Shown here piece by piece: positions 3,293-57,003 of a stretch of DNA of 64,000 nucleotides. The stretch covers positions 631 through 64,630 of the forward strand of contig NZ_JAKZEW010000015.1 in assembly GCF_022548875.1 (NCBI RefSeq). Reading direction: 5' to 3'. This stretch comes from Glycomyces sp. L485. GTDB lineage: Bacteria; Actinomycetota; Actinomycetes; Mycobacteriales; Micromonosporaceae. The position numbers were made by a program, and so were the translations under genes. Position 1 is the stretch's first letter. Every line of letters begins with the position of its first letter. The notes under the pieces were generated by a model. It was not told where the DNA came from. It did no database searches and saw only the letters and a program-made list of their open reading frames with translations.

Positions 3293-4045
3293 TCAGCCCT
3301 CGGTGACGTAGGGGCTGTGCGCGACTTCAGTGCCGTCGTCGAGCGAGGCGATGGTGAAGTCGGCGAAGACGTTCGCGGCCTTCTCTTGGAGCTGCCGCAG
3401 GCATTCGACGGCCAACGCGCGGATCTCGACATCGGCGTGTTCGGAGGCGCGCATGGCGATGAAGTGGCGCCATGCGCGGTAGTTCCCGGTGACGACGATG
3501 CGGGTCTCGGTGGCGTTGGGCAGTACTGATCGCGCCGCCTGGCGCGCCTGCTTTCGACGCAGCGTGGGGTTCGCCACGTCGGCGAACTTCTTCTGGAGGC
3601 CTTCCAGGAGGTCGTTGTAGGCGCTCTGGGCGGCCTCGGAGGCGGCCAGGAAGCGTTCGTGGAGCTCGGGGTCCCCCGCGATGACCTCCGGCTCGACCAT
3701 GGCCGCGTCGCGCTCGGGTACGTAGCGCTGCGACAGCTGGGAGTAGGAGAAGTGGCGGTGGCGGATGAGCTCGTGCGTGAGCGAGCGCGAGATACCGGAG
3801 AGGTAGAAGGTGACGCTGCCGTGCTCGAGGACCGACAGGTGCCCGACCTGGAGGATGTGGTCGAGGTAGCCGGCGTTCGTGGCGGTCTTGGGGTTGGGCT
3901 TCTTCCAGGACTGGTAGCAGGCGCGACCGGCGAACTCGGCGAGCCCTTCGCCGCCGTCGGCGTCGGTGTTCCAAGGGATGTCGGCCGGGGCCTCGAAGTG
4001 CGTCCAGGCGATGAGTCGGACGTCCATCGGTACGATTTCGGGCAT
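3293..4045 (-). CDS. thyX: flavin-dependent thymidylate synthase
   Basis: ThyX makes dTMP from dUMP using FAD and methylenetetrahydrofolate. The diagnostic RHR-x7-S motif is present ([13 protein letters not shown], residues 95-107). I chose ATG 4045 because it follows a purine-rich GGGGAGCGGGG ribosome site and gives 250 residues, normal for actinobacterial ThyX. A longer in-frame extension to 4225 has no family support. The -10-like TATAAC (minus strand, 4083-4088) could serve it. It precedes dapA and rnj in the same direction. Confidence 0.93.
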
Positions 4046-6167: not shown

Positions 6168-6854
6168 ATGCTGGCACTTACGAAGCGGGCCACGCGCCGG
6201 GCACTGGCCGCGGGCGCCGCAGTCGGCGTCCTGATCGCCACTTCCGGCTGTCTCAGACTCGACCTGGAACTCGAAGTGCGGCCGGACGACTCGGTCGACG
6301 GGACCTTCACCGCCGCCTGGAGCGAGGAGTTCCTCGACGAGGTCCGCTCCGGCGATGACGCCATCGATCAGTCTGAATTGGATGCGTTTCTCGAAGCGCT
6401 GCTGGAGGGCGTGCCGGACGCCGATCGCAGCGCCTACCACGCCGAAGGCTACATCGGACAGAGCGCGAGCTTCACCGGGCGGCCCTTGGCCGAGTTCGCC
6501 GACCTCGGCGGCGACGAGTGGGGGTACCTGCGGATCACGCACGAGGACCGCCGCTACCTCCTCGACGGCTACTGGGACCTCAGGATCGACGAGTTCCTCG
6601 ACATCGAGAACCTGGAGGACGCCGAGATCGTCATCAGTGTCAACTTCCCCGCCGCCGTCACCGACCACAACGGCGAACTGGACGGGCGCACCGTCACCTG
6701 GACTATGTCGCCGGGCGAGGATTACGAGCTGCGCGCCGAAGCCGAGCAGTACAACGGCCGGGCGTGGCTGGCAGTCGGCGCCGGTTCGCTCGTGGTCGTG
6801 CTGGCGCTGCTGTGGCTGTGGCAGTGGAGCCGGCTCCGGAAGTACTCGCTCTGA
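6168..6854 (+). CDS. LppM-like lipoprotein
   Basis: Protein of 228 residues with a lipoprotein signal: Arg-rich N-terminus, hydrophobic stretch, and lipobox ATSGC with the lipidated cysteine at residue 28. The extracytoplasmic region resembles the LppM domain of mycobacterial lipoproteins (LDLELEVRPDDSVDG near the N-terminus). A single membrane helix near residues 202-222 is followed by basic residues, so the domain is tethered at both ends. There is no strong ribosome site; TAGGCT at about 6158-6163 could be a -10 of a leaderless message. Convergent with dapB. Confidence 0.75.
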   Translation: MLALTKRATRRALAAGAAVGVLIATSGCLRLDLELEVRPDDSVDGTFTAAWSEEFLDEVRSGDDAIDQSELDAFLEALLEGVPDADRSAYHAEGYIGQSASFTGRPLAEFADLGGDEWGYLRITHEDRRYLLDGYWDLRIDEFLDIENLEDAEIVISVNFPAAVTDHNGELDGRTVTWTMSPGEDYELRAEAEQYNGRAWLAVGAGSLVVVLALLWLWQWSRLRKYSL

Positions 6855-13075: not shown

Positions 13076-13119
13076 TAGGGGCCTCTGGTGGTCCCGGCCG
13101 GGACCACCAGAGGCCCCTA
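13076..13119. terminator. perfect 44-bp palindrome, bidirectional terminator-like
   Basis: Two 22-base arms without any spacer (TAGGGGCCTCTGGTGGTCCC then CC/GG at the centre). The stop codon TAG of the 80-residue membrane protein gene (13117-13119) forms its edge. It separates that gene from ribF and insulates ribF expression. Confidence 0.75.
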
Positions 13120-13606: not shown

Positions 13607-14770
13607 ATGACATTCATGAGATTCCGGACCGCGGCCGTCGCCGCCGCCACGACCGCGGCGATCGCCGCGGCCACCGTCACCGGCGGAGGCACCGCGCAGG
13701 CGGCGGGGTCGACCGGCTGCGTCCAGCTCAACGGGCACACCGTCTGCCGCACCGACCCGCGCGGCGGTTCCGACACCTCCATCGTCAAGGAGATCGTGCG
13801 CCAGATCGACCGAACCGGCCGCGGCGACACCGTCCGAGCGTCGGTCTACCAGTGGACGCTCGAGCGGCCCGTGAGACCCGTGGCCGAGAGCCTGATCAAG
13901 GCGAAGCGGCGCGGCGTCGACGTCAAGGTCGTCATCGGCCGGCGCGGCAGCGCGCCGGCAGCGAACAACGCGGTCATCGCCGAGTTCAAGGACGCCGGCA
14001 TCGCCGTCAAGCAGTGCAAGGGCGCCTGCCTGCCCAATCCGGCGGGCCGGACGAAGGGCCCCAACCACAACCGCTTCTTCCTCATCGAACGCGATGACAG
14101 GCCGACGGTGATCACCACCAGCTTCAACTTCACCCGCTTCCACACCACCCAGGCGCACAACCTCATCGCGGTGCACGGCGACCGGTCTCTGCACGGGTTC
14201 TACAACAGGTACTGGCAGCGGCTCTATAAAGGATCATGGAAGGGCTGGGGTGAGCGGCACAAGGACACCCCGGGCAACGGCACCCACGCGTGGGTCTTCC
14301 CGCGCTCGGCCGATCCGATCGCCTCGCAGCTGAAGCAGGTCACCGGCTGCGCCAAGGGCGACCGGGTGTGGGTCGCGCACGCGAACTTCCAACCCAACCG
14401 GCCGGCGGTGCGCGAGCAGCTCGGCCGGATCAAGCGGCTCGGATGCGACGTCAAGGTCGTGGTCCTGGACAAGGACACCAACAGCCCGAGCTGGATCGCG
14501 AAGGCGACCGGCGGCGGGAGCGTCCGCGTCCACTCCTCGCTGCGCGACAAGTTCATCGTCCTCGACGCCGAGTTCAACGGGAAGGCGCGTCAGCTCGTCT
14601 ACACCGGCACGCACAACCTCAACAAGAACAGCATGAAGAACGCCGACGACAACCTGCTCCGGGTGGGAGGCAAGACCGTCGCCGGCGTCTACACGGACTA
14701 CTTCAAGAGGTTGTGGAGAGGCAGTGCCCGATTACGGCTCGCAGGCTTCGCCGATGGAGCTAGCCCTTGA
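13607..14770 (+). CDS. secreted phospholipase D-like protein
   Basis: Protein of 387 residues with a Sec signal peptide (Arg, then long Ala/Thr/Val core, cleavage after AQA near residue 32), so it is probably extracellular. Two PLD-like halves are visible. The HKD motifs are degenerate: NHNRFFLIE in the first half and LRDKFIVLD in the second, with Arg in place of the second catalytic His. Asparagines at TSFNFT and THNLN are kept. It may be a divergent PLD/nuclease or an inactive binder. The start ATG 13607 has GGGGTGAG upstream. The last 11 bp overlap the convergent permease gene. Confidence 0.8.
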   Translation: MTFMRFRTAAVAAATTAAIAAATVTGGGTAQAAGSTGCVQLNGHTVCRTDPRGGSDTSIVKEIVRQIDRTGRGDTVRASVYQWTLERPVRPVAESLIKAKRRGVDVKVVIGRRGSAPAANNAVIAEFKDAGIAVKQCKGACLPNPAGRTKGPNHNRFFLIERDDRPTVITTSFNFTRFHTTQAHNLIAVHGDRSLHGFYNRYWQRLYKGSWKGWGERHKDTPGNGTHAWVFPRSADPIASQLKQVTGCAKGDRVWVAHANFQPNRPAVREQLGRIKRLGCDVKVVVLDKDTNSPSWIAKATGGGSVRVHSSLRDKFIVLDAEFNGKARQLVYTGTHNLNKNSMKNADDNLLRVGGKTVAGVYTDYFKRLWRGSARLRLAGFADGASP

Positions 14771-46153: not shown

Positions 46154-46229
46154 TCCCCGATAGCTCAATTGGCAGAGCATTCGACTGTTAATCGAAGGGT
46201 TGATGGTTCGAGTCCATCTCGGGGAGCCA
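46154..46229 (+). tRNA. tRNA-Asn (GTT), 3' part doubles as attL
   Basis: Acceptor TCCCCGA/TCGGGGA, D-arm GCTC..GAGC, anticodon loop CTGTTAA (GTT), T-arm GATGG-TTCGAGT-CCATC, discriminator G and an encoded CCA (46227-46229). The 3' 37 bases recur at 54815-54851, showing that an element integrated here and rebuilt the tRNA end. The chromosomal terminator of this tRNA now lies beyond attR. Confidence 0.96.
46193..46229 (+). repeat. attL core (37 bp)
   Basis: From CGAAGGG through the CCA end of tRNA-Asn. Identical to 54815-54851. The bases flanking the core differ on both sides. Confidence 0.92.
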
Positions 46230-46296
46230 AAACCGCACATGTGCGCAGGTCAGACGCTATTAAGTTTGATCTGCGCCATTGGCGTGTCTGCCGCCG

Positions 46297-46320
46297 GTAC
46301 GCTTCCAGTACACACTACTT
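46297..46320. repeat. candidate integrase arm site near attL
   Basis: GTACGC-ttcca-GTACACAC-TACTT. It closely resembles GTACGC-actag-GTACACAC-ACTT at 54691-54713 near attR, and overlaps the integrase stop codon. Presence at both ends in the same orientation suggests binding sites for the integrase or excisionase. Confidence 0.5.
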
Positions 46321-47472
46321 CTCGTCGGATCGCAAGCCTTCAGGCTTGATCACCTTCAAACGGGCCGCGTCCATCCGGTCGGAAACCTCGTCGAGCCGGT
46401 CCGGCAACAGGTGCCCGTAGGTGTTGAGCGTCTCCGTCGCGTCAGCGTGTCCGAGCATTGTTTGGACCACCTTCACGTCTGCGCCCTCGGCGATCGCGAG
46501 GCTAGCGGCGGTGTGCCGCAACGCATGCGGCGTGATGCCCTTGTTGTCCAGCTTGGCCGCCGTCAGCGCCGGGTTGAACTCTCGACGCCTCCAGTTGCCC
46601 GCCCGCAGCGGCGTACCCGCGGGGGTGGTGAACACGTAGCTGTCGGCTTCCCGACCCTTCACCAACGGCGCCATCTCCTCGGCCACCGACGCTGGCAGCG
46701 GCACCGTGCGCGCCTTCCCCGTCTTCGGCGTGTCCTCGTACAGTCCGCCCTTGCCCTCGATCAGAGTGGACTCAATGCGGATGCGTCGGCGCGTGATGTC
46801 GACGTTGCCGACCTTCACCGCCGCAGCCTCCCCCCACCGCAGGCCCACATAGGCCAACACGAGGATGAATACCCGCGTCACATCCCGCTCGGCTGCGTTC
46901 GTGAGCGCCTCCACCTGCGCGACAGTGAGATAGACCTTGCGGCCCTCGGGTGGCTTCGGCAGCGGCACCGACTTGGCCGGGTTCACCGCGATCCTGTCGG
47001 GCACGCACCAGTCCAGGATGCGTGAGAGCACGCCGTGTACTTGCCGCTTCTGCGATGCCCCGCATTCGAGCCCGCCGAGCCATGCGGCGATGTCGTCGCG
47101 GCGGATGCGCTCGACCGCCATGTCGCCCCACCGCGGCTTGATGTGGTTGTCGATCGCGATCCGGTACAGCCGCAACGTGGACCGCTTCTGCTTCACCTGC
47201 GCGGCCATCCAGGTCTCGGCGACGTCGCCCAGGCGGACACGGCCGGCGTCGGGATCGCGGTAGGCGCCGAGGTTGCGTTCGTTCTCCAGTTTGGTTCGTA
47301 GCGCGTCAGCATCTGGCTTGCGCTCCACAGACCTTGACCGCTGCTTGCCGTCCGGGTCGCGCCATCGGACCCGCCATCGCGCAGGTGGCCTGCGGCCGTC
47401 CGCCTTGGCCTTCTCGACGGCCTCACGATAGGCCGAATGCTCCATGCGGTCCTCTACCCACACCCGGGCCAT
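46315..47472 (-). CDS. int: tyrosine site-specific integrase
   Basis: Protein of 385 residues. N-terminal AP2-like arm-binding region (about 30-70), SAM-like core-binding domain (about 80-165), catalytic domain with R212 (GLRWGE), H316-x-x-R319 (HALRH), H342 (GHAD) and nucleophile Y352 (NTYGH). Integrates and, with the excisionase, excises the element at tRNA-Asn. Its ATG shares one base with the stop of the XRE regulator gene, so the regulator and integrase are co-transcribed. Confidence 0.96.
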   Translation of the reverse strand: MARVWVEDRMEHSAYREAVEKAKADGRRPPARWRVRWRDPDGKQRSRSVERKPDADALRTKLENERNLGAYRDPDAGRVRLGDVAETWMAAQVKQKRSTLRLYRIAIDNHIKPRWGDMAVERIRRDDIAAWLGGLECGASQKRQVHGVLSRILDWCVPDRIAVNPAKSVPLPKPPEGRKVYLTVAQVEALTNAAERDVTRVFILVLAYVGLRWGEAAAVKVGNVDITRRRIRIESTLIEGKGGLYEDTPKTGKARTVPLPASVAEEMAPLVKGREADSYVFTTPAGTPLRAGNWRRREFNPALTAAKLDNKGITPHALRHTAASLAIAEGADVKVVQTMLGHADATETLNTYGHLLPDRLDEVSDRMDAARLKVIKPEGLRSDEK

Positions 47473-48020
47473 TACTCACCTTCCTTGCCTAGATGCACCT
47501 CAACCTCAATTGGCCCGGCCTTCGTCCCGTGGGCTGTGACCACGTAGGGCCGTTCAAGGCCGCGGGAGGCGAGGAACCGCGCAAGCTCAGCACGGATCTC
47601 CTTCTCGTAGGGCCGGTTCTCGGCGATGAAGTCCTGATAGCTCCCCACTCCCCCGGTGATGGCCTGCTCACCATGCATCCACCGCCACACCAGGTCCCAA
47701 GGCGCGCCGACCTTTTCATTCAGCCAGATGGCTTCGTCGTCGTCGTCGTCGGGTTTAACTGGCATCAGCAGGGTTACCGGCGAGACGCCCACCGCGAGTG
47801 CCAACGCCACCAAGTCGTCTACATCGACGCGCCGACCGCCGGCCTCGATCTTCGTGATTGCCGTTGCTGCCATTGGGCGGCCTAGCTCGGTCATGTTCTC
47901 CGCCACTGCGCGCGTGGACATTCGACGTTCCCCACGGATGCGCCGAAGGTTCGCACTCACCGCGCGTCCGACCACAGAGGGCGTGTTGGCTCGTTTAGCC
48001 GGTTGCTTTGCTTCCATCAT
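47472..48020 (-). CDS. XRE family regulator of the element
   Basis: Protein of 182 residues (from ATG 48020). The helix-turn-helix lies near residues 20-80 (STRAVAENM, then ATAITKIEAGGRRVDVDDLVALA). An acidic stretch DDDDDE is followed by a C-terminal domain of unknown type. Likely the repressor that controls integrase and the divergent excisionase/replication genes. A TTG at 48038 would add six residues; AATACT just before ATG 48020 looks like a -10, suggesting a leaderless transcript. Confidence 0.85.
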   Translation of the reverse strand: MMEAKQPAKRANTPSVVGRAVSANLRRIRGERRMSTRAVAENMTELGRPMAATAITKIEAGGRRVDVDDLVALALAVGVSPVTLLMPVKPDDDDDEAIWLNEKVGAPWDLVWRWMHGEQAITGGVGSYQDFIAENRPYEKEIRAELARFLASRGLERPYVVTAHGTKAGPIEVEVHLGKEGE

Positions 48021-48034
48021 CGGAGTATTGCACA

Positions 48035-48103
48035 CCAAGTTGCGAAGGGTTGAGACCTCGTGTCATACTCCCATCATCATCTTGAATGCTGCCAAGTTGG
48101 CAG
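48035..48103. promoter_or_regulatory. operator cluster between XRE and excisionase genes
   Basis: CTGCCAA-g-TTGGCAG (48089-48103) is a perfect 15-bp palindrome. The same CCAAGTTG core occurs alone at 48035-48042. Two related sites in a divergent switch region fit a phage-like repressor circuit. Confidence 0.55.
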
Positions 48104-48128
48104 TGATTCAATCCAAGGGAGGGTGACG

Positions 48129-48320
48129 ATGGCCGAAGTTCGAAGCTTGGCAAGTGTCGACGACGCGGCGGAATTCCTCGGAGTCCCCAAGGGGACGCTC
48201 GCTCAATGGCGCTACCTCGGCAAGGGACCGCGCTGGTCAAAGATCGGCCGCTACGCCCGGTATCGCTGGGAAGACCTCCAGAAGTACGTCGATGAGAACG
48301 CCAAGGGGGGCGACCGGTGA
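48129..48320 (+). CDS. xis: excisionase / small helix-turn-helix protein
   Basis: Protein of 63 residues with the HTH_17 (MerR/excisionase-like) fold: SVDDAAEFLGVPKGTLAQWR then GPRWSKIGRYARYRWEDLQKYV. ATG 48129 follows GGAGGGTGA. It stands first in the rightward unit and is coupled to the next gene by a GTGA overlap. Probably needed for excision, or for recruiting the replication protein. Confidence 0.88.
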   Translation: MAEVRSLASVDDAAEFLGVPKGTLAQWRYLGKGPRWSKIGRYARYRWEDLQKYVDENAKGGDR

Positions 48321-48685
48321 GTCAGACACGAGAAAGCCGCCCCGAGCAGCAACCCGAGGCGGCAGAAAACAAGGTCAGCCAGACCACCACCAGGATAACC
48401 GACGAAGTACCCACCAGCGTCTATGACGTCGTCGCCTCACTCGACCGGCTCGCCGCCGCCCTCGCTGACGAACGCCGCGCCTATGAGGACGGGTTCAAGG
48501 CCGGCTACGCCGACGGCTACCAAGTCGGCCACGTCCACGGCGAACGCGTCGCAGACGAGACATGGTCGTGGGCGCTGGGTGCCATCGGGGTCGGGAAGCG
48601 CGAAGCCAACCCCGACCACCGCGGCGCGAACCGGTGGCGCCTACTCGCTGGCCTCGGCCCCAAGGAACTGGAGACCGGCCAATGA
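48317..48685 (+). CDS. hypothetical protein, element-encoded
   Basis: Protein of 122 residues starting with GTG, overlapping the excisionase stop by four bases and the RepA-like start by four (ATGA). It is hydrophilic, with a Tyr/Gly-rich stretch YEDGFKAGYADGYQVGHVHG near residues 55-74, and no membrane segment. Tight coupling on both sides suggests a role with the replication ATPase. No family recognised. Confidence 0.75.
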   Translation: MSQTRESRPEQQPEAAENKVSQTTTRITDEVPTSVYDVVASLDRLAAALADERRAYEDGFKAGYADGYQVGHVHGERVADETWSWALGAIGVGKREANPDHRGANRWRLLAGLGPKELETGQ

Positions 48686-50043
48686 GCGACCAGAAGTGCG
48701 AGAAGTGCGGCAAGGCGATTGTCCCCAGTCTTCGGGTTCCGGACTACATGGTCTGCGAGGGATGCCAAGCCCATTCTTCACGATGTGAGTGCATACCAAC
48801 CGGGACTGAATCACTTCGGCGAATCAAACTCACCCCGGCCTCGGACATCGAACCCGAGCCGGTCATATGGGCGTGGGAAGACGGACCCGACCGCGGACGC
48901 ATACCCGCAGGGGCACTCACCCTCGCCGCCGGCCGCGAGGGCACCGGCAAGTCCAGCTTCGGAATCTGGCTCGCCGCCCAACTCTCCCGGGGTGAACTCC
49001 CGGGCACCTTCCATGGCCACCCAAAGGCCGTCTTCTACTGCGCCGTAGAGGACTCATGGTCGCGCACCCTCGTCCCGAGACTCATCGCCGCCGGTGCCGA
49101 CATGTCCCGTGTCTATCGCGTCGAGGTCGAAGACGTCCGGTTTGGCGAAGTCATGGTGTCGCTCCCTGCCGACGTCGAACTCATCGAGAAGGCCATCGCC
49201 GAATACGACGCCGCCGCGCTCATCGTCGACCCGATCATGTCGACGCTCGGCAGCGGTACCGACGCTCACCGGACCCAGGACGTCCGGCGCGCACTGGAGC
49301 CGCTGGTGCGCATGGCCGAACGAACCAAGGCGCTCACGCTCGGCATCATGCACTTCTCGAAAGCGTCCGGCACCGACGCCTCACAGCTCATCAGCGGGTC
49401 CGGTGCGTTCAAAGACCTCGCCCGCGCCATCCTCGCGTTCGCTCGCGACCGGGAGACCGACGAGCAGGTCATGACACAGACGAAGAACTCGCTAGGCCGC
49501 CTGGATCTGCCTTCACTGGGCTACCGCATCGACAGCGTCGACATTGACACCCGCAAGGGCAAGGCGAACGTGGGCCGCCTGGAGTTCACCGGCGAGTCCG
49601 AGCGGTCCGTCGAGGACACGCTCGTCAGTCGTGACCCAGGGGAGACCAGCGAGCGTGGTGAAGCCTCCGCGTGGATTCGGGACTACCTCACCCACTGTGG
49701 CGGGTCTGCGCTCGCTAAGGACGTCATCGAGGCAGCCAAGCATGCCGACTTCAAAGAGGACCCCATCCGCAAGGCCCGGGCGAAGGTCGCGACGACGAAG
49801 CGCAGCGGGTTCGGCAAGGGTTCAACGGTGACGTGGTCGCTCATAGATTCCCCCATAGATGCCATAGATGCCAGCTCTCGTGGCGTGGCATCTATGGCAT
49901 CTATGGCGGCACCTATGGAGTCGGAGTCGGCCACGTCGCACATGTGGTGGCCCGGCCGCAGCACCGGCGAGCACGGCCGCGACTGCACCGACTGCCGCCA
50001 AGCACCAGGCGGCCCCGACCACGCCCAGGAGGCCGGACAGTGA
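48682..50043 (+). CDS. RepA-like AAA/RecA-fold ATPase, replication protein candidate
   Basis: Protein of 453 residues. N-terminal zinc ribbon C6-x2-C9 ... C25-x2-C28, then a RecA-type ATPase with Walker A GREGTGKSS (residues 84-92) and Walker B ALIVDP (near residue 170). HFSKASGTDASQLISGSGAFKD is typical of RepA/phage DnaB-like helicases of this class. A winged-helix-like segment lies around 340-400. The 3' end encodes an odd IDAIDA...VASMASMAAPM stretch, because it contains a symmetric array of DNA repeats (49842-49917). The C-terminal 40 residues (His/Asp/Cys-rich) have no family match. Confidence 0.85.
   Translation: MSDQKCEKCGKAIVPSLRVPDYMVCEGCQAHSSRCECIPTGTESLRRIKLTPASDIEPEPVIWAWEDGPDRGRIPAGALTLAAGREGTGKSSFGIWLAAQLSRGELPGTFHGHPKAVFYCAVEDSWSRTLVPRLIAAGADMSRVYRVEVEDVRFGEVMVSLPADVELIEKAIAEYDAAALIVDPIMSTLGSGTDAHRTQDVRRALEPLVRMAERTKALTLGIMHFSKASGTDASQLISGSGAFKDLARAILAFARDRETDEQVMTQTKNSLGRLDLPSLGYRIDSVDIDTRKGKANVGRLEFTGESERSVEDTLVSRDPGETSERGEASAWIRDYLTHCGGSALAKDVIEAAKHADFKEDPIRKARAKVATTKRSGFGKGSTVTWSLIDSPIDAIDASSRGVASMASMAAPMESESATSHMWWPGRSTGEHGRDCTDCRQAPGGPDHAQEAGQ
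49842..49917. repeat. symmetric CATAGAT iteron array (3 + 3 copies), candidate origin
   Basis: CATAGAT occurs at 49842, 49854 and 49863. Its complement occurs at 49890, 49899 and, with one change, 49911. Spacings are 12 and 9 bp on the left and 9 and 12 bp on the right, all around one axis at 49879.5. The inner part is a perfect 21-bp inverted repeat (49853-49873 / 49886-49906) with a 12-base spacer. Multiple spaced half-sites around one axis are expected for an initiator binding site. In mRNA it would form a strong hairpin. Confidence 0.85.
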
Positions 50044-50072
50044 GAACGGGTCATCATGTCGGGCCGCTCGCC

Positions 50073-50095
50073 TATAATTCAACACATGGTGAATT
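50073..50095 (+). promoter_or_regulatory. leaderless promoter and operator
   Basis: A perfect TATAAT (50073-50078) lies seven bases before ATG 50086. The palindrome AATTCA-acacatgg-TGAATT (50076-50095) covers the -10 and start codon, so a bound repressor would block this promoter. The -35 is weak. Confidence 0.6.
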
Positions 50096-50799
50096 CTCAG
50101 AGCGCGCCCCACCGGACATGCGTCCGCTGCGGCGACAACGTGCCAACCGCAAAAATCGTCCAAACCGCACGGTTCGCAGACAAGACCGCACCCATCCCAG
50201 ACTGGGCCATAGCCTGCTCACGCGAGTGCGCCCAGCGACACAGCCTCGCAGAAGCAGGCCGCACCACCCGATGCGCCATGTGCCCCAAGATCGTCCGCAA
50301 AGCCGACAGCATCAGCGAACCCGCCAGGCCCGGCCGCCGCCGCATCTACTGCTCCGACACATGCAAACGCGCCCGTGAACGCCAACTCGCCCGAGGCTGG
50401 CGCACCATCGGCAAAGGCGTCGCCGGACTCCCCAAGGCACCCAACGACAGCGCCGACTCCGCAACATGGGCCGCGCACACCGAACGGCTACGGCGCATCA
50501 GCGCCGACATCGACGCCACCGCCGCATCAACCCGCGAGACCGGCACCCGACCCGACGGGGCCGTCAGCGAATCGCTCGGGAGCCTCCGCCGCGCACTGAT
50601 CGAGCGCGTCACCGAATCCAACATCCGCGCCCGCCGCAGGCACGGCGAGGAACGCGCCCGGGAACTGAGCACCAAGGCCGCAGAAGCCGCAAACGCGGGC
50701 CGGCTTGACCGCGCCCACCGACTCAGCCGAGCCGTGGTGGAGGCCCTCGCCAGCCTCCCCGACCTACCCGACACCGACGACCTGGAGCTGACCAAATGA
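50086..50799 (+). CDS. zinc-finger protein of unknown function
   Basis: Protein of 237 residues (ATG 50086 chosen for the leaderless promoter; ATG 50056 is an alternative). Two treble-clef-like Cys clusters: CVRCG...CSRECAQRH (about 12-52) and CAMCPK...CSDTCKRAR (about 61-93). A long basic helical C-terminus with RARRRHGEERARELSTKAAE follows. Likely binds DNA or RNA. Coupled to the next gene by ATGA. No named family recognised. Confidence 0.75.
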   Translation: MVNSQSAPHRTCVRCGDNVPTAKIVQTARFADKTAPIPDWAIACSRECAQRHSLAEAGRTTRCAMCPKIVRKADSISEPARPGRRRIYCSDTCKRARERQLARGWRTIGKGVAGLPKAPNDSADSATWAAHTERLRRISADIDATAASTRETGTRPDGAVSESLGSLRRALIERVTESNIRARRRHGEERARELSTKAAEAANAGRLDRAHRLSRAVVEALASLPDLPDTDDLELTK

Positions 50800-51050
50800 C
50801 CATGACAGCAGCGAAGCGCCGACACGCACTCGCAGGCTTCAAGTCCGCCAACGAACGCGCACCGATCATCGCGCAGATCGACCGCGCCTCCGATGCCCGC
50901 AGGACACGAGCCCGAGCCAGAGCCCTACGCATGTGGCGCGAAGCTCGCGGCATCTCGAAGGCCGAACACGACCAGATGCTCAAGGCGCAGAGGGCCAAGG
51001 GGACAGGCCGGGGGGCACCCACTGTACGGGAAAATAGGACATACCTCTGA
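50796..51050 (+). CDS. small basic protein of unknown function
   Basis: Protein of 84 residues, Arg/Ala-rich and helical (SDARRTRARARALRMWREA), with no membrane segment. It overlaps the preceding gene by four bases (ATGA). It could be a DNA-binding accessory factor. The last gene of the rightward unit; 460 bp of non-coding DNA follows. Confidence 0.6.
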   Translation: MTMTAAKRRHALAGFKSANERAPIIAQIDRASDARRTRARARALRMWREARGISKAEHDQMLKAQRAKGTGRGAPTVRENRTYL

Positions 51051-51514
51051 GCCCGGCCCCATGGCTCTTCCTGTGCAGGCGGTTCCCACGAATCGGTCTC
51101 TGAGGGGCTGGGTGTGAGTGTCGGTTCTGTGTGGGCCGTCCTGGTGCAGGTATGCGTAACCCGCTGGTAGTCGCTTAGGGTGGCTCTCAGCGGGTTGTGT
51201 TTTGCCTGGTCAGAGTGGTTTTCCGTCGTGCGGGAGGGGTTAGGGGCGTCCTTGGCGTTGGACGCCCCTGGTTCGGGTCGGGTTCTCGACTCCAACGCGC
51301 GACAGTATCGCGGAAACGGACATCTCCACTACGAACCGGGCCCCAAGGGCGTCGGTAGTAGCGACGCTCTTGGGGCCCTTATTCGGCGACCACCGAAAAA
51401 GCCTGGTGACAATCTTGCGGAGACACGCAAAGTAGGGCCAGCGGCGGTGCTCCCAGGGAACCTACCGTCCAGATGAGACTAACGCTTCGCGCGCAACGTC
51501 AGCCGGAGGGGAAC
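51051..51514. other. non-coding stretch with three stem-loops
   Basis: No gene is supported here. Three hairpins occur in order: AACCCGCTG/CAGCGGGTT (51158-51196, 21-base loop), GGGGCGTCC/GGACGCCCC (51243-51268, 8-base loop) and a 17-bp stem with one G-U pair (51338-51378). The last one is terminator-like. The rest could be a structured RNA, a single-strand origin or a transfer site. Confidence 0.6.
51338..51378. terminator. 17-bp hairpin, likely terminator within the element
   Basis: GGGCCCCAAGGGCGTCG pairs with CGACGCTCTTGGGGCCC (one G-U) around a 7-base loop, then ttatt on the plus strand. It separates the rightward unit from the leftward small genes. Confidence 0.7.
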
Positions 51515-51805
51515 CTAGAGCTTGCCGTCGGCGGCGGCTCCGGCGAGAATCCTTGCCGCTTCGAGGCGCCATTGCCGTTTCCGGTCGGCGGGGGTGGACT
51601 TCCACAGGTCGCGGCACACCATGCCGACGACGCGGCCGTGGTCGTGGACGACTTCGGCGAGCGGGGTGAGTTTCTCGGCGACGTTGACCAGGTTCACTCG
51701 GGCCACGTCGGGCCCGGCGTCTTCTATGGCGTAGGTGAAGGGTTGGACCTCGAACACGCCGAGCACTGTGCCCGGCAGTCGGTCTAGCAGTCCGTCAGTG
51801 TTCAT
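51515..51805 (-). CDS. small protein of unknown function
   Basis: Protein of 96 residues: MNTDGLLDRLPGTVLGVFEV, middle part DVARVNLVNVAEKLTPLAEVV, and a basic C-terminus. ATG 51805 has AGGAGC five bases upstream and overlaps the stop of a 45-codon gene (ATGA). No membrane segment, no family recognised. Confidence 0.7.
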   Translation of the reverse strand: MNTDGLLDRLPGTVLGVFEVQPFTYAIEDAGPDVARVNLVNVAEKLTPLAEVVHDHGRVVGMVCRDLWKSTPADRKRQWRLEAARILAGAAADGKL

Positions 51806-51939
51806 CGCTGCTCCTGGTTCTCCTTGGCGGTGGGGCAAGGCCAGGCCATGAAGCACTCTTGGCACGTCTTTCCGTCGCGGGTGGCGATGTGGAAGCCTGC
51901 GGCTATCTCGGCGTCGGTCTTCCGTTGCTGCTTCGGCAT
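51802..51939 (-). CDS. 45-residue Cys-rich small protein
   Basis: ATG 51939 with GGGGAC upstream; reads MPKQQRKTDAEIAAGF, then a TCQECFMAWPC knuckle (C-x2-C-x5-C) and a hydrophilic end. Its TGA overlaps the next start (ATGA), and its own coding carries the next gene's ribosome site. A zinc-binding mini-protein is likely. The coupled arrangement supports it as real. Confidence 0.65.
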   Translation of the reverse strand: MPKQQRKTDAEIAAGFHIATRDGKTCQECFMAWPCPTAKENQEQR

Positions 51940-51970
51940 GTGTCCCCGTCGGTCGGCCCTGTGGTTGTCG

Positions 51971-52054
51971 GGCCGTCGGCGTTACCGCGTCAGCGCCAGC
52001 GTCCGCCTACCCGGACGGCTCGCGCCGGGATCAGCAGCGGTAACGCCGACGGCC
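51971..52054. repeat. 18-bp inverted repeat with internal hairpin, cruciform-like
   Basis: GGCCGTCGGCGTTACCGC (51971-51988) and its exact complement (52037-52054) flank 48 bases. These contain a second perfect hairpin, CGTCCG-cctacc-CGGACG (52000-52017). It lies in the 193-bp gap between two leftward genes of the element. Nested dyads of this kind are common at replication or transfer origins; it could also be a structured mRNA leader. Confidence 0.75.
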
Positions 52055-52132
52055 TTGCAGGAGACCGTAAGGGCATTGAGGAGAGTGAAGGGGCACAGAA
52101 TGTACCCCCAACGACGAGAGCGGCTCTCGCGC

Positions 52133-53356
52133 TCAGTCGACCAGGCCGACGGCTGCGGCAAGCTCGCTCGCGCTCTGTCGCAGCGGCTTCGGGCCTTCCA
52201 GCAGTTGCAGCGTCATCCGGCGGGCGAACCCGTTGTAGCGGACAGTCTCCGGCGCGGTCCGCTGCGCATCGTGCAGCGTGGCGAGCGCTTCGGCGAACTG
52301 GCCTTGGGCGTGTTGGGCGCGGGCGACTTCGACCAGGTGCCGCGAGCGTCGCGGGTTTGAGGGAATCGCCGCCGGATCGGTGCGCCGCGCGTACTGGAGT
52401 GCGGTCCCCGGTTGCGCCAGCTCGACGGCCGCCGTCACCGCGTGCGCGCCGATGATCGCTCGGCTAAACGACGTCTGCGGGTGGTAGTGGAGCTCAGGGA
52501 GCCGTGAGGCGACGTCGTCGGCACGGTCCCACATCCGCCACGCCTGGCCGGCCTCGCCCGCCCTGGCTGCCGTGTAGGCCGCTTCGAAGCTCAGCGCCCC
52601 GTACATCGACAGTTCAGCCGTCTGCGCGTCCGGTAGCCGCGGTTCCAGCATCCGCAGGGCGCCGTCGATGACGTCGGCTGAGTCGTCCCACTGGCCAGCG
52701 TCGCGGTGGACCTGACACATGAACCAGACCGCCGAGGCGATCACGGCGCGGTCGCCGGACTCTTGGGCGGCCATCATGCCGCGCTCGGCGATGCGCCACA
52801 ACAGGTTGCCGTCGGGCTGGTAGGCGGCGAACATCTGGGCCAGGTTCATCACCTCGGCGAGGATCGCGTATGCCTCGCGCCGCTCGGCCAGGTCGGCAGT
52901 GGTCGTCGCCGCTTGAGCTTCGGTGATGAGGCCGGGGAGGAGTTCACCGAGGGCGGTGCGGTGGTTGGCCGAGGCGTGCCGGACCCGCCAGGCGTCCGCC
53001 AGGCGCAATCGCAGGTGCGCGAGGTTGACCTCATGTGGCTCGGCGAGAGCAAAGTTGTTGACGGCCTTGCGGACAGCGGTTAGCGCCGGGTGCCCTGGGC
53101 CGCGGAATGACTCGATGGGCAAAGGCTGGTCGCCGACGAGGTCGGCCACGTCGCGGATGTTCAACACTTCGGCGATCTTGAGGAGGGTCTGCAGGCGCGG
53201 CATCTGCAACCGGCCCGTCTCGACGGCCTTGACCCAACTGCCGGACTTGCCGAGGAGCCCGCCGAGGACTTCGCGGGTCTTGCCGGCGCGGTTGCGGTAG
53301 TACTTTAGGCGTGCGCCGAAGGGCATTGCTGAGTCTGAGGGATCAACGCCGTTCAT
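52133..53356 (-). CDS. XRE regulator with TPR-like C-terminal region
   Basis: Protein of 407 residues. The N-terminal HTH (FGARLKYYRNRAGKTREVLGGLLGKS) is followed by VETGRLQMP. A long alpha-helical TPR-like domain follows. This layout is widespread in actinomycetes as an RRNPP-like regulator possibly sensing a peptide or small ligand. The role in the element is unknown. It is leftward, upstream of the small genes. ATG 53356 is probable; ATG 53326 in frame is possible. Confidence 0.88.
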   Translation of the reverse strand: MNGVDPSDSAMPFGARLKYYRNRAGKTREVLGGLLGKSGSWVKAVETGRLQMPRLQTLLKIAEVLNIRDVADLVGDQPLPIESFRGPGHPALTAVRKAVNNFALAEPHEVNLAHLRLRLADAWRVRHASANHRTALGELLPGLITEAQAATTTADLAERREAYAILAEVMNLAQMFAAYQPDGNLLWRIAERGMMAAQESGDRAVIASAVWFMCQVHRDAGQWDDSADVIDGALRMLEPRLPDAQTAELSMYGALSFEAAYTAARAGEAGQAWRMWDRADDVASRLPELHYHPQTSFSRAIIGAHAVTAAVELAQPGTALQYARRTDPAAIPSNPRRSRHLVEVARAQHAQGQFAEALATLHDAQRTAPETVRYNGFARRMTLQLLEGPKPLRQSASELAAAVGLVD

Positions 53357-53442
53357 TCTCCCAGGCTACGGCCTACAGTCTCATGGCGCCAGCACAGAGG
53401 CCCGCCCCGAGCGCGACGACTTGGAGCGGGCCGACGGCAAGC

Positions 53443-54105
53443 CTAGACCTCCTTGCGGGCCTTATGGATCGCGAGCAGTGCGAGCGCCCCGACTGTCACC
53501 AGGCCGTCAACGGCGATCGGCCCGAGGTGGGCCGACAGCGGGTCTTCTCCCCAGTGTGCGAGTAGGCCGGACATGTGCCGGTAGGACACGACAGCGGCGA
53601 CGACGGCGACCGCGCCGACCCCGGCGAACCGCACCAGCGCGTACCCGACCGAGGCAGGCCAGCGGACGCGGGCCATGACTTCGATGGCGACGACGAGCGC
53701 GACGGGCCAGAACGCGGCCCCGGCAACCTGCGGCAGGCTCCTCGTGCCGTCGCTGACGACGTTCACGGTGTGGAGGATGTTGGCGCCCACGGAGGCGCCG
53801 ATCCCGAGGACGAGCGCGAGCCAGGCGGTTGCCGCCGCGCCCCGCGGTTGTGCCGGGACTTGCCGCTCGCCTGCCGCTTCGGCAGGGGTGTCAGCTTCGG
53901 TGACACCCTCGGCAAGGGTCACGACGCCGCCGTTACCCTCGGCCTTGACTTCCTTGATCCGGTCGCGGCCCCACCGCTCGGAGCGGCCGAACTCGGCGCC
54001 GAGCTTCGCGCCCGACAACGGCACCCCAGCGGCCACAGACCGCCGGTAAGCCTCCCGGGCGTCCTCGCGCTCGGCCGAGTACTGCTTGCGCTCAGAGTGC
54101 GTCAC
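53443..54105 (-). CDS. DUF2637 / SpdB-like membrane protein
   Basis: Protein of 220 residues. The N-terminal third contains a helix-turn-helix-like GAKLGAEFGRSERWGRDRI segment. Residues 95-215 carry four hydrophobic helices of the DUF2637 type found in SpdB plasmid-spread proteins. GTG 54105 overlaps the upstream stop by four bases (GTGA) and has GGGGAGG nearby. In Streptomyces plasmids SpdB proteins assist intramycelial spreading together with TraB, but no TraB gene is present here. Confidence 0.85.
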   Translation of the reverse strand: MTHSERKQYSAEREDAREAYRRSVAAGVPLSGAKLGAEFGRSERWGRDRIKEVKAEGNGGVVTLAEGVTEADTPAEAAGERQVPAQPRGAAATAWLALVLGIGASVGANILHTVNVVSDGTRSLPQVAGAAFWPVALVVAIEVMARVRWPASVGYALVRFAGVGAVAVVAAVVSYRHMSGLLAHWGEDPLSAHLGPIAVDGLVTVGALALLAIHKARKEV

Positions 54106-54617
54106 AGCGCCTCCCCAAGCTTGGCGTCCTGCCCGGCACGGATCGCGGACGTGAGCGCGTCGTGAAACGCCTCCCACGTCGCAGTGACTCTCGGGTCATG
54201 GTGCAGCTTGTCCTTGAGCCGTCGGCCCCTGCGGGCCTCGGCCTTGGCCTGGTCCAGGCTCAGTTCGCCCCAGAGGATGTACCAGAGGCCGTTGTTGCAG
54301 TTCTTGAGCCGCTCGACCTCGGCTGCCAGCTCGGCGTTCTCGACGATCGCGTCGTCGAGGGTTTCGGCCAGGCGCTCGTTCTCGGCGCGCACGTCATCAA
54401 CGACGGCCTGGGAGCCGCAGCCGCAGCCGTCGACCTCGGCGCCGGTCACCTCGGCCACGGTGTAGCCGTACAGTTCGAGGTAGGCGCGGATGCTGTCGTC
54501 GCAGGCGGGAGAGCTGTAGATGTCGATGGCGGACCCGTCGCCTCGGGTGCCGCGGAGGAGGTGTGTCGCGGCGTCGCCGCACCGAACCTCGGGGAGCGGG
54601 TGGGTAGAGTTGGTCAT
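54102..54617 (-). CDS. coiled-coil protein of unknown function, element-encoded
   Basis: Protein of 171 residues. N-terminal part with Cys (CGDAATH; GCGCGSQ), then a leucine-heptad coiled coil (about residues 75-106, ENERLAETLDDAIVENAEL), then a basic helical tail. GGAAGG precedes ATG 54617. Coupled to the DUF2637 gene. First gene of the leftward unit next to attR. No family recognised. Confidence 0.75.
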   Translation of the reverse strand: MTNSTHPLPEVRCGDAATHLLRGTRGDGSAIDIYSSPACDDSIRAYLELYGYTVAEVTGAEVDGCGCGSQAVVDDVRAENERLAETLDDAIVENAELAAEVERLKNCNNGLWYILWGELSLDQAKAEARRGRRLKDKLHHDPRVTATWEAFHDALTSAIRAGQDAKLGEAL

Positions 54618-54690
54618 GTCGGAACCTTCCGTTCAGGTCCCGGCTTCGCCCGGTCAGCGGTATCAGCGCTGGTCGGGCTTTCGCTTTTCA

Positions 54691-54713
54691 GTACGCACTA
54701 GGTACACACACTT
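54691..54713. repeat. candidate integrase arm site near attR
   Basis: GTACGC-actag-GTACACAC-ACTT, related to the site at 46297-46320. It sits 102 bp from the attR core. Confidence 0.5.
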
Positions 54714-54814
54714 AGCGAAACGCCGAGAAACATTGCGATTCGTTGAGTGCGTCTTACCTGCGTAATGACGGTTTTCGAGCTGTAACCGCTGGTGGCTATC
54801 CCGCCCGGATGTAA

Positions 54815-54851
54815 CGAAGGGTTGATGGTTCGAGTCCATCTCGGGGAGCCA
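54815..54851 (+). repeat. attR core (37 bp, truncated tRNA-Asn 3' end)
   Basis: Exact copy of the last 37 bases of tRNA-Asn including CCA. The sequence to its left is unrelated to a tRNA, so no second functional tRNA exists here. Confidence 0.92.
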
Positions 54852-55446: not shown

Positions 55447-57003
55447 ATGCACGAACCCCGAGAAGCACCTCAAGTCACACAGAAGACGAGACGCCGAACG
55501 ATCGCGATCGCAGCAGGCGTGGTCGGCGCGCTCGGCGCAGGCGCGCTGACGGTCGTCGTGGCGACCAACGCCAGCGCCGACCCGGGATGCCAGGTCGACT
55601 ACCGCATCGTCAACGACTGGGGCTCCGGCTTCCACGCCGACGTCAGCATCACCGCCGACGAGGCGATCGACGGCTGGACCATCGAATGGGACTTCGCCAG
55701 CGCTGTCTCCGGCATCAGCGCCTGGAACGTCACCGACCAGTCACTTGACGGCCGTCACTTCACCGCCTCGGACTCCGGATGGAACGCCGTCATCGACGAG
55801 GGCGAGACCACCCGGGTGTTCGGCCTCATCGGCTCCGGCCCCGGCGCCGACATCACCGACGTCACGATCAACGGCGAGTCCTGCGGCAAGAACGGCGAGG
55901 TGCCGTCCGAGGAGCCGACCGAGGAGCGGACCGGCGAGCCGTCCGAGGAGCCGACCGAGGAGCCGACGACGGACGTGCCCACTGAGGAGCCGACCGAGGA
56001 TCCGTCCGACGATCCGGGCGCCGAGGACCCCCCGGCGGCCGCCGACGGCCCCGTGGGCTACGCCGCGATGAACGGCGGCACCACCGGCGGGTTCGGGGCC
56101 GCCACCGTCAGCGAGCACACGGTCGGCGACGGCGACGCTATGTACGGCCTGCTCAAAGAGCATCGCGACGCAGGCTCGGACGAGGGCCTGGTCATCTACG
56201 TCGACGGGACCATCAGCCCGAGCAACTGCTCGTGCGTCAACATGGACGTCAGGGACGTCGAGAACGTCTCGATCATCGGAGTCGGCGACGCCGGTGAGTT
56301 CGACGGGATCGGATTCAACGTGTCCGGGGCGCACAACGTCGTCATCCGGAACCTCGAGATCCACCACGTCAGCGAGGGCGGCGGCGACGGGATCGGCGTC
56401 CAGAGCGGCAGCTCGAACATCTGGATCGACCACAACGAGATCCACAACGAGTACCCCGATGTGGACAAGGACTACTACGACGGCCTGATCGACATCAAGG
56501 GCGGCTCGGAGTACATCACCATCTCCTGGAACCACCTCCACGACGCTTGGAAGACGATGCTGACCGCCTCCAACGACAGCGAGGGCGCCAACGGCGACAA
56601 GATCACTTACGCGAACAACCTGTTCGAGAATCTGGGCTCGCGCGTGCCGCTGATCCGACGCTCGGAGGTGCACATGCTCAACAACTACTTCCTCGACATC
56701 GGGGACACCGCGATCAACGCCCGCATGGGCGCGCAGGTCCTGGTCGAGGGGAACTACTTCGAGAACGTGGGCACCGGCCGGGCCGACGGCAACACCGGCC
56801 ACGTCAAGGGCGCGGTCGGCTGGTTCTACGGCAGTCCCGAGACCGGCTACTGGCACCTGGTCGACAACGCCTTCGAGAACACCGCGCACGAGCACCTGGA
56901 GTCGACCACCGACTTCACCGTCCCGTACGACTACGACGCGCTCAGCCCGGAGCAGGCCCGCGACCAGGCCCTGCGGCACACCGGCACCGGAGCACTCGGC
57001 TGA
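55447..57003 (+). CDS. secreted pectate lyase (PL1) with CBM2 cellulose-binding domain
   Basis: Protein of 518 residues. Signal peptide with twin basic residues (KTRRR) and a long Ala/Gly/Val core, cleaved near ASA (about residue 44). A family 2 carbohydrate-binding module follows (CQVDYRIVNDWGSGFHADVSI, 47-150), then an acidic Glu-Pro-Thr repeat linker (about 153-200). The C-terminal PL1 beta-helix carries IWIDHNEIHNEY, DGLIDIKGGSEYITISWN and RVPLIRRSE, including the catalytic Arg. It cleaves pectate in plant walls while anchored to cellulose. AAGGAG lies 10 bases before ATG 55447. Confidence 0.94.
   Translation: MHEPREAPQVTQKTRRRTIAIAAGVVGALGAGALTVVVATNASADPGCQVDYRIVNDWGSGFHADVSITADEAIDGWTIEWDFASAVSGISAWNVTDQSLDGRHFTASDSGWNAVIDEGETTRVFGLIGSGPGADITDVTINGESCGKNGEVPSEEPTEERTGEPSEEPTEEPTTDVPTEEPTEDPSDDPGAEDPPAAADGPVGYAAMNGGTTGGFGAATVSEHTVGDGDAMYGLLKEHRDAGSDEGLVIYVDGTISPSNCSCVNMDVRDVENVSIIGVGDAGEFDGIGFNVSGAHNVVIRNLEIHHVSEGGGDGIGVQSGSSNIWIDHNEIHNEYPDVDKDYYDGLIDIKGGSEYITISWNHLHDAWKTMLTASNDSEGANGDKITYANNLFENLGSRVPLIRRSEVHMLNNYFLDIGDTAINARMGAQVLVEGNYFENVGTGRADGNTGHVKGAVGWFYGSPETGYWHLVDNAFENTAHEHLESTTDFTVPYDYDALSPEQARDQALRHTGTGALG

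Follow-up and report, generated by a model that had tools for sequence, protein, structure and literature searches.

Candidate iteron origin at the end of an AAA_25 helicase-like gene, with unit sequences that follow the protein's own winged helix

What does a symmetric array of short repeats do inside a replication gene, and which protein would read it? The array considered here lies in the window, the whole 64-kb stretch of DNA analysed, and falls, where the preliminary description had placed it, within the 3' coding part of the RepA-like ATPase gene of an integrated element; it encodes residues 389–414 (LIDSPIDAIDASSRGVASMASMAAPM) of a 455-residue protein. The best reading of the compared sequences is a self-cognate iteron origin on an AAA_25, RecA-fold, helicase-like protein, with a conserved geometry, a diversified sequence and a partly readable code. 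We put at roughly 78% the probability that the array consists of iterons bound by the C-terminal winged helix (wHTH) of the RepA-like helicase and most likely forms the core of the origin from which the element replicates.

The coordinates are collected in Table 1. The three direct units described previously are exact copies of CATAGAT (starting at 49842, 49854 and 49863), whereas of the three complementary units two are exact ATCTATG (49890 and 49899) and the outermost is imperfect, reading ACCTATG (49911–49917) with one mismatch to the 7-mer. The mirrored spacings of 12–9 and 9–12 and the symmetry axis at 49879.5 were both confirmed from the unit positions, as was the perfect 21-bp inner inverted repeat (49853–49873 and 49886–49906) with its 12-base spacer; over 32-nt arms the complementarity is 91%. 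All 40 shuffles of its own region scored below the array, and its DNA occurs a single time in the host genome. Perfect inverted repeats of at least 16 bp with spacers of at most 20 occur at five places in the window, the array included, and a low-complexity coding stretch (55828–55994) outscores the array in the array scan. Because inverted repeats alone are not rare in the window, the case for the array rests on comparison: what sets it apart from chance is that it recurs in homologues at the corresponding position. As separate observations, the stretch at 55828–55994 is an EPTEEP-like linker repeat in the gene 55447–57003 and looks like ordinary low-complexity protein, and a perfect 22-bp inverted repeat at 13076–13119, outside the element, is possibly a terminator.

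Table 1. Coordinates of the array, the RepA-like gene and the surrounding element in the window
Feature	Position	Strand	Basis or remark
Inverted 3 + 3 repeat array, candidate RepA-binding origin	49842–49917	.	repeat scan, fold, shuffles
Unit 1	49842–49852	+	2 mismatches to CATAGATGCCA
Unit 2	49854–49864	+	identical to CATAGATGCCA
Unit 3	49863–49873	+	shares CA with unit 2 (overlap)
Central spacer, 12 bp	49874–49885	.	
Unit 4	49886–49896	-	
Unit 5	49895–49905	-	overlaps unit 4
Unit 6	49907–49917	-	2 mismatches (11-bp frame)
RepA-like protein	48676–50043	+	N-terminus apparently zinc-ribbon-like; then AAA_25 ATPase, winged helix towards the C-terminus and a disordered tail
Winged-helix codons, residues 321–392	49636–49851	+	AF2 order H-E-H-H-E-E; domain also modelled alone
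Recognition-helix codons, residues 361–371	49756–49788	+	AF2 model, covariation scan
Integrative element in tRNA-Asn, 8.66 kb	46193–54851	.	37-bp perfect direct repeat at both ends
tRNA-Asn gene	46154–46229		
att repeat, 3' end of tRNA-Asn	46193–46229	+	37-bp direct repeat
att repeat, distal end	54815–54851	+	37-bp direct repeat
Tyrosine integrase	46315–47472	-	PF00589, E 4.6e-25
XRE-type regulator	47472–48038	-	PF13560, 27.4 bits, cut-off 27
Excisionase-like HTH_17 protein	48060–48320	+	PF12728, E 1.2e-8

The RepA-like protein matches AAA_25 (PF13481) at E 8.6e-24 and 84.7 bits against a gathering score of 27; the other Pfam signal is a KaiC match below threshold. Pfam gives no primase domain, no DUF927 or D5_N/Primase_Cterm helicase domain and no Rep_3 or RepA_C initiator domain, and the N-terminus appears zinc-ribbon-like from its sequence. 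Among solved relatives of the ATPase, RSF1010 RepA (1g8y) ranks third (E 9.1e-8), behind two RadA chains. The profile PHROG 10729 (DNA polymerase/primase) is matched only in its C-terminal half, at positions 371–711 of 722. The AF2 model, built on a 39-row alignment, has a mean pLDDT of 84, with means of 91–97 over residues 331–390 of the winged helix and 77 over 321–330, about 70 over 391–400 and below 50 from residue 404 in the tail; in this model the start of the array coincides with the end of the winged helix. Foldseek with the wHTH alone returned weak matches (best E 0.014) with many winged-helix proteins among the matches listed, a result that supports the modelled winged-helix fold and assigns no family. 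Of seven relatives scanned, PrimPol precedes AAA_25 in pCG2, Toprim is fused in front in two Streptomyces plasmids, in one phage Toprim scores beneath the cut-off, and three carry AAA_25 alone. Furthermore, many of the phage homologues among the matches listed are annotated as DNA primase/polymerase or primase/helicase. In the Pseudomonas plasmid L103 (2965–5523), a RepA-related AAA-family ATPase adjoins a TnsA-like endonuclease and a DDE transposase, a neighbourhood that suggests a different use for the same ATPase family.

To compare loci, we searched both strands of the 800 bases surrounding the 3' end of each homologous match for 9-mers that recur, with dinucleotide shuffles as the reference. 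In 52 of 75 homologue loci the region beat all 40 shuffles, as against 3/73 upstream regions and 4/68 ATPase bodies; in a second batch, comprising 30 of the 31 hold-out loci (L127, a duplicate of L116, was left out), 23 loci beat all 50 shuffles, with 2/28 and 0/30 in the control regions. At an array score of 7.5, false positives numbered 4/28 and 1/30 controls. The preliminary description had regarded homologous rep genes without an array as speaking against its reading; loci not above shuffles form a minority (23/75 and 7/30), which includes four Kratiovirus phages with no detectable array near the gene, some truncated loci and some with arrays visible by eye. In the Kratiovirus phage Gengar, a whole-genome scan gave no CAGT-type array in the best ten repeat clusters. 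Of 132 loci in total, L010, L019, L055, L064, L075, L077 and L103 (truncated or without wHTH) were excluded from later comparisons; 89 of the remaining 125 had a score of at least 7.5 and sufficient domain length, and 85 were left after removal of near-duplicates.

Our comparison of these sequences indicates that the layout is conserved in homologues and the CATAGAT sequence is not. A search for CATAGAT in homologous rep genes, proposed earlier as a check, would for this reason fail. Of 285 same-strand steps in the 85 loci, 124 measure 9 bp, 28 measure 12 bp, 25 measure 11 bp and only 6 measure 10 bp, and neighbouring opposite units lie 25–26 apart in 26 of 142. The window has steps of 12-9-25-9-12; with other units, L009, L020 and L022 have 11-9-25-9-9, L023 has 11-9-26-9-12 and L046 has 12-9-26-9-11. 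Units differ by element, for example CAGTCGCGCCA, CAGTTGCGCCA, CAGTCGGCTCA, CATAGGCGCCA, CATTCGGATCA, CGAAGGTGCCG and C(G/A)AAGGGAGC. Many match an inward-read frame CA-N7-CA, with C 69%, A 76%, C 76% and A 72% at the ends (85 loci), a regularity that is partly by construction because the frame was fitted, by hand first and iteratively later. The 9-bp step reflects a shared CA, which can close one unit and open the next. Fifty-five of the 85 arrays lie within the open frame, 10 across the stop and 20 wholly behind it, and behind the stop 9 bp is again the most frequent step (19/80). Some arrays are nearly one-sided: L021 has six sites in one direction, and L126 and L135 have weak opposite sites only. 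No pronounced AT-rich unwinding element accompanies the arrays, AT averaging 38.5% in the middle of the array and about 32% in its surroundings (85 loci). Further repeat families trail the main array in L006 and L033, and behind the stop in L016, L017 and L021 (TGTCAACG; GCTATCGATAGC-like).

Searches of viral contigs with the window protein and with L020 as queries found no relative; L039 led to four loci and L024 to one. In the search for CATAGAT itself, a 20-base pattern matched two viral contigs. One, L145, was rejected because it reads as an amino-acid repeat (IDA/RAA). The other, L146, has an inverted CATAGATG array, which is not counted as support because its own AAA_25 gene (E 3.1e-38) precedes a different array, AACGGGACA. 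This AACGGGACA array (3419–3597) has nine sites and several 10-bp steps, and suggests that the architecture may extend past the set studied.

Plasmids and a candidate circular form serve as natural experiments. In genome G1450 the element has a chromosomal copy at a tRNA-Thr gene, and two further contigs contain nothing but the 7,800-bp unit in tandem, with periodicities of 99.99% and 98.3%; the sequence of the first matches the integrated copy exactly. Such contigs are as expected of an excised circle, an assembly artefact or a tandem insertion being other options. A second inverted array with CGAAGGGAGCG-type units, as at the repA end, was noted at 6564–6664 of this circle (L139), about 2.4 kb round from the repA-end array towards the integrase 3' side. 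In the S. chartreusis plasmid CP108844 (L026) no array was found behind repA; of the seven exact CA[AT]TCNCGTCA units on this plasmid, six lie at 14279–14433, about 4.8 kb away. By comparison, all four exact units of its sister plasmid cluster behind repA. Four such units in 170 bp were reached in 0/200 shuffles of either plasmid, with a pattern derived from these same plasmids plus L106 and L107; with the general detector, each of the two plasmids has a stronger repeat than this cluster. In the S. chartreusis plasmid the top-scoring repeat is a CCGTGAGAG cluster (L143, 5299–5472).

If the winged helix reads the array, unit sequence should follow this domain. Across the 85 loci, unit distance correlates with wHTH distance when the ATPase is held fixed (partial r 0.394, 0/4999 permutations as large) and does not correlate with ATPase distance when the wHTH is held fixed (−0.005, 2696/4999), in tests whose shuffles and permutations leave part of the shared ancestry in place. 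When 323 RepA columns were compared with the 11 unit positions, the top pairs were V385 with base 4, D362 with base 9, G380 with base 3 and R376 with base 3; D362 lies at the start of the recognition helix, and V385, G380 and R376 belong to the wing. Columns above z 8 number 6/30 in helix and wing, 3/233 in the ATPase, 1/43 in the linker and first helix and 0/17 between, with L338 (first helix) and G79 and A219 (ATPase) among them. The strongest residue–base covariation lies mainly in the recognition helix and wing.

A wing rule was fixed before new loci were fetched: P-R predicts CAGT, GF[GA] predicts CAT and W.W predicts AAG. In training (66 loci, classes by regular expression) it held for 7/9 G/CAT, 18/28 P/CAGT and 16/22 W/AAG loci, with 7 unclassified and the CAT class widened to CAATC after L106 and L107 had been seen; the P-wing misses include Microbacterium phages, whose wHTH is another one. 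The hold-out comprised 31 loci, of which 10 fell below score 7.5, two were near-duplicates, L135 was unclassified and 18 were scored. Thirteen of these 18 agreed with the rule (permutation p 0.00025), the wing and unit classes being set manually, since L045 and L110 had been misassigned by the expression. The failures are L115, L120, L137 and the CAAT loci L106 and L107, both treated as misses; L136 and L137, with WW in place of W.W, were taken as W and gave one match and one miss. Among below-threshold hold-out loci, L104 would miss and L122, L123, L126 and L134 would match. A helix rule written together with the wing rule gave 6/14 in the hold-out with the automatic frame (p 0.051), its R-to-C part 5/5. 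We do not claim its D-to-G part, because the outcome depends on the framing of GAAGGGAGC-type units: most fit by hand, as against the automatic 6/14. The window is itself an exception to the helix rule, D362 occurring with C at base 9.

Natural swaps separate the two halves of the protein. The window and L105 share 84% identity in the ATPase core and 17% in helix plus wing, and the L105 array has GAAGGGAGC units, unrelated to those of the window; by comparison, L042 and L110 share 39% in the ATPase core and 73% in the wHTH, with an identical unit, CATTCGGATCA. A bolder generalization, to which we give an even chance, is that in a widespread family of actinobacterial elements and phages a few wing residues set bases 3–5 and one residue at the beginning of the recognition helix sets base 9, with wHTH and adjacent origin swapped by recombination as a cassette. 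If true, new compatibility groups could arise in one step and origins would be predictable from protein sequence.

Taken together, comparison of the loci shows a conserved position and layout and a unit sequence that tracks the wHTH. That RepA would recognise the array through its own wHTH is strongly supported by comparison, and no other step of the proposed mechanism has as much support. Int and Xis would excise the element as a circle, on which RepA subunits would bind the 9–11 bp units through recognition helix and wing, with three inward-facing units flanking the 12-bp spacer on either side, presumably with one wHTH per unit. Binding would load the RecA-fold helicase, 3 + 3 = 6 sites perhaps yielding a hexamer, and a putative helicase activity would start unwinding; priming would come next, probably by the host, the window RepA having no Pfam primase domain. 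The array probably sits at the gene end because wHTH and array then move as one exchangeable specificity cassette. Of the initiator-binding origin overlapping rep that had been suggested, the initiator-binding half is well supported by comparison (array counts, covariation and wing rule), while the origin half stands as the best reading: we infer it from the protein's replication context and from known systems, SaPI and pRN1, that work likewise.

Protein–array covariation speaks for recognition, not for function, and the same contacts could serve a RepA-binding operator or copy-number control (autoregulation, handcuffing, titration) in place of a replication start. The absence of an AT-rich unwinding region in the 85-locus mean would suit this, as would a gene that starts at 50056, 139 bp past the array, with a TATAAT hexamer at 50073–50078. 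Behind rep, the element encodes a further XRE-type regulator and a DUF2637 protein (Pfam). We nevertheless hold an operator unlikely: the array lies about 1.2 kb behind the start of repA itself, no downstream gene is conserved (the largest + strand ORF family covers 7/78 loci), a search of 49500–50300 with the sigma-70 consensus only found no promoter-like site, and the protein is helicase-like, no repressor. The perfect 21-bp inverted repeat could also make a DNA hairpin, as cruciform or single-strand structure, the initiator's actual requirement, as proposed for plasmid pRN1, whose origin is a movable stem-loop behind a PrimPol-helicase-wHTH gene in the sections available of PMC4234260. Asymmetric and nearly one-sided arrays, together with base-specific covariation with recognition helix and wing, make this quite improbable.

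The other two alternatives concern the transcript and the peptide. A long mRNA hairpin at the repA 3' end, governing message or translation, had been the second leading reading of the preliminary description, and the predicted RNA fold is stable (−53.2 kcal/mol, z = −5.9, with 0/200 shuffles equally good). Such a hairpin has no need of short repeated units within its arms, no terminator-like site was found at the array, and the units covary with wHTH residues; in addition, 20/85 arrays lie wholly behind the stop codon, L021, L126 and L135 are nearly one-sided, and the displaced CP108844 array is ill-suited to a hairpin at the 3' end of the message. We therefore disfavour this reading as very improbable. 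That the array is a low-complexity coding repeat or a chance palindrome would fit the reading frame preserved by 9-bp steps and the higher score of the EPTEEP-like stretch. Its probability appears close to negligible, since the peptides vary between homologues (IDA/ASM, GAT, QSR), most of the tail that carries them has low AF2 confidence, arrays also occur behind stop codons, control regions are nearly all negative, and both the shuffle tests and the wHTH partial correlation contradict it.

An iteron origin read by RepA's own winged helix would supply origins for many integrative elements, plasmids and phages whose annotation is poor, together with a natural data set of many joint changes in the DNA-reading domain of a helicase-like protein and in its origin. 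It also makes testable the loading of a RecA-fold helicase without a separate initiator and the escape of replicons from incompatibility. In the open-access PMC literature we recognised no account of such arrays behind AAA_25 genes; other literature may differ.

Our comparison with known systems reveals a mixture of shared and distinct features. Rep_3-type iteron plasmids use a dimeric winged-helix Rep, iterons of about 20 bp and an AT-rich region; by contrast, the RepA described here has no Rep_3 or RepA_C match, and its units are accompanied by no pronounced AT-rich element. Phage P4 has two arrays (ori and crr), and the G1450 circle has two as well. Its alpha protein, a primase-helicase that binds repeats at its own origin in the partial account available, is alike in this respect and belongs to a helicase family other than AAA_25. 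The Prim-Pol/RepPP modules of actinomycete ICEs belong to elements that are similarly small and tRNA-borne and that pair an integrase with a rep gene associated with Prim-Pol (PMC3218068, in the part available), and the present element likewise combines integrase and replication gene in a tRNA gene, the AICE criterion. Unlike an AICE, it has no Pfam match to an FtsK/SpoIIIE-type Tra among the ten element proteins scanned, and the available part of PMC3218068 describes no such array.

Of the relatives with solved structures, RSF1010 RepA is one of the closest to the ATPase. RSF1010 iterons are bound by RepC, a separate protein (PMC4234260, in part), whereas here the DNA-binding domain is on the helicase-like protein itself. 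In pRN1 of Sulfolobus, the origin lies behind the gene, is movable and shows conservation of structure without conservation of sequence, and pRN1-type replicons resemble the present system in the C-terminal winged helix of the initiator and the origin behind its gene (same source). Unlike RepA, the pRN1 protein joins an SF3 helicase to PrimPol, and the stem-loop is described without iterons in that part of the source. A close parallel in layout is SaPI Rep, whose C-terminal domain recognises iterons immediately behind the gene that encodes it; as presented in the excerpts available of PMC7581432, SaPI Rep and SCCmec Cch2 with its putative origin combine a self-loading helicase and own-gene iterons in an integrative element, and the present system would do likewise. 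Short repeats at the initiator-gene end, the SaPI-type criterion, are present in the window and in 52/75 plus 23/30 homologue loci. The SaPI/SCCmec helicases carry DUF927 or D5_N/Primase_Cterm, unlike the RecA-fold AAA_25 of RepA, and the array here, unlike theirs, is usually within or across the coding-sequence end. RepA falls outside the SaPI Rep families, because their helicase domains are absent from it, and by analogy the array would work like a SaPI-type origin.
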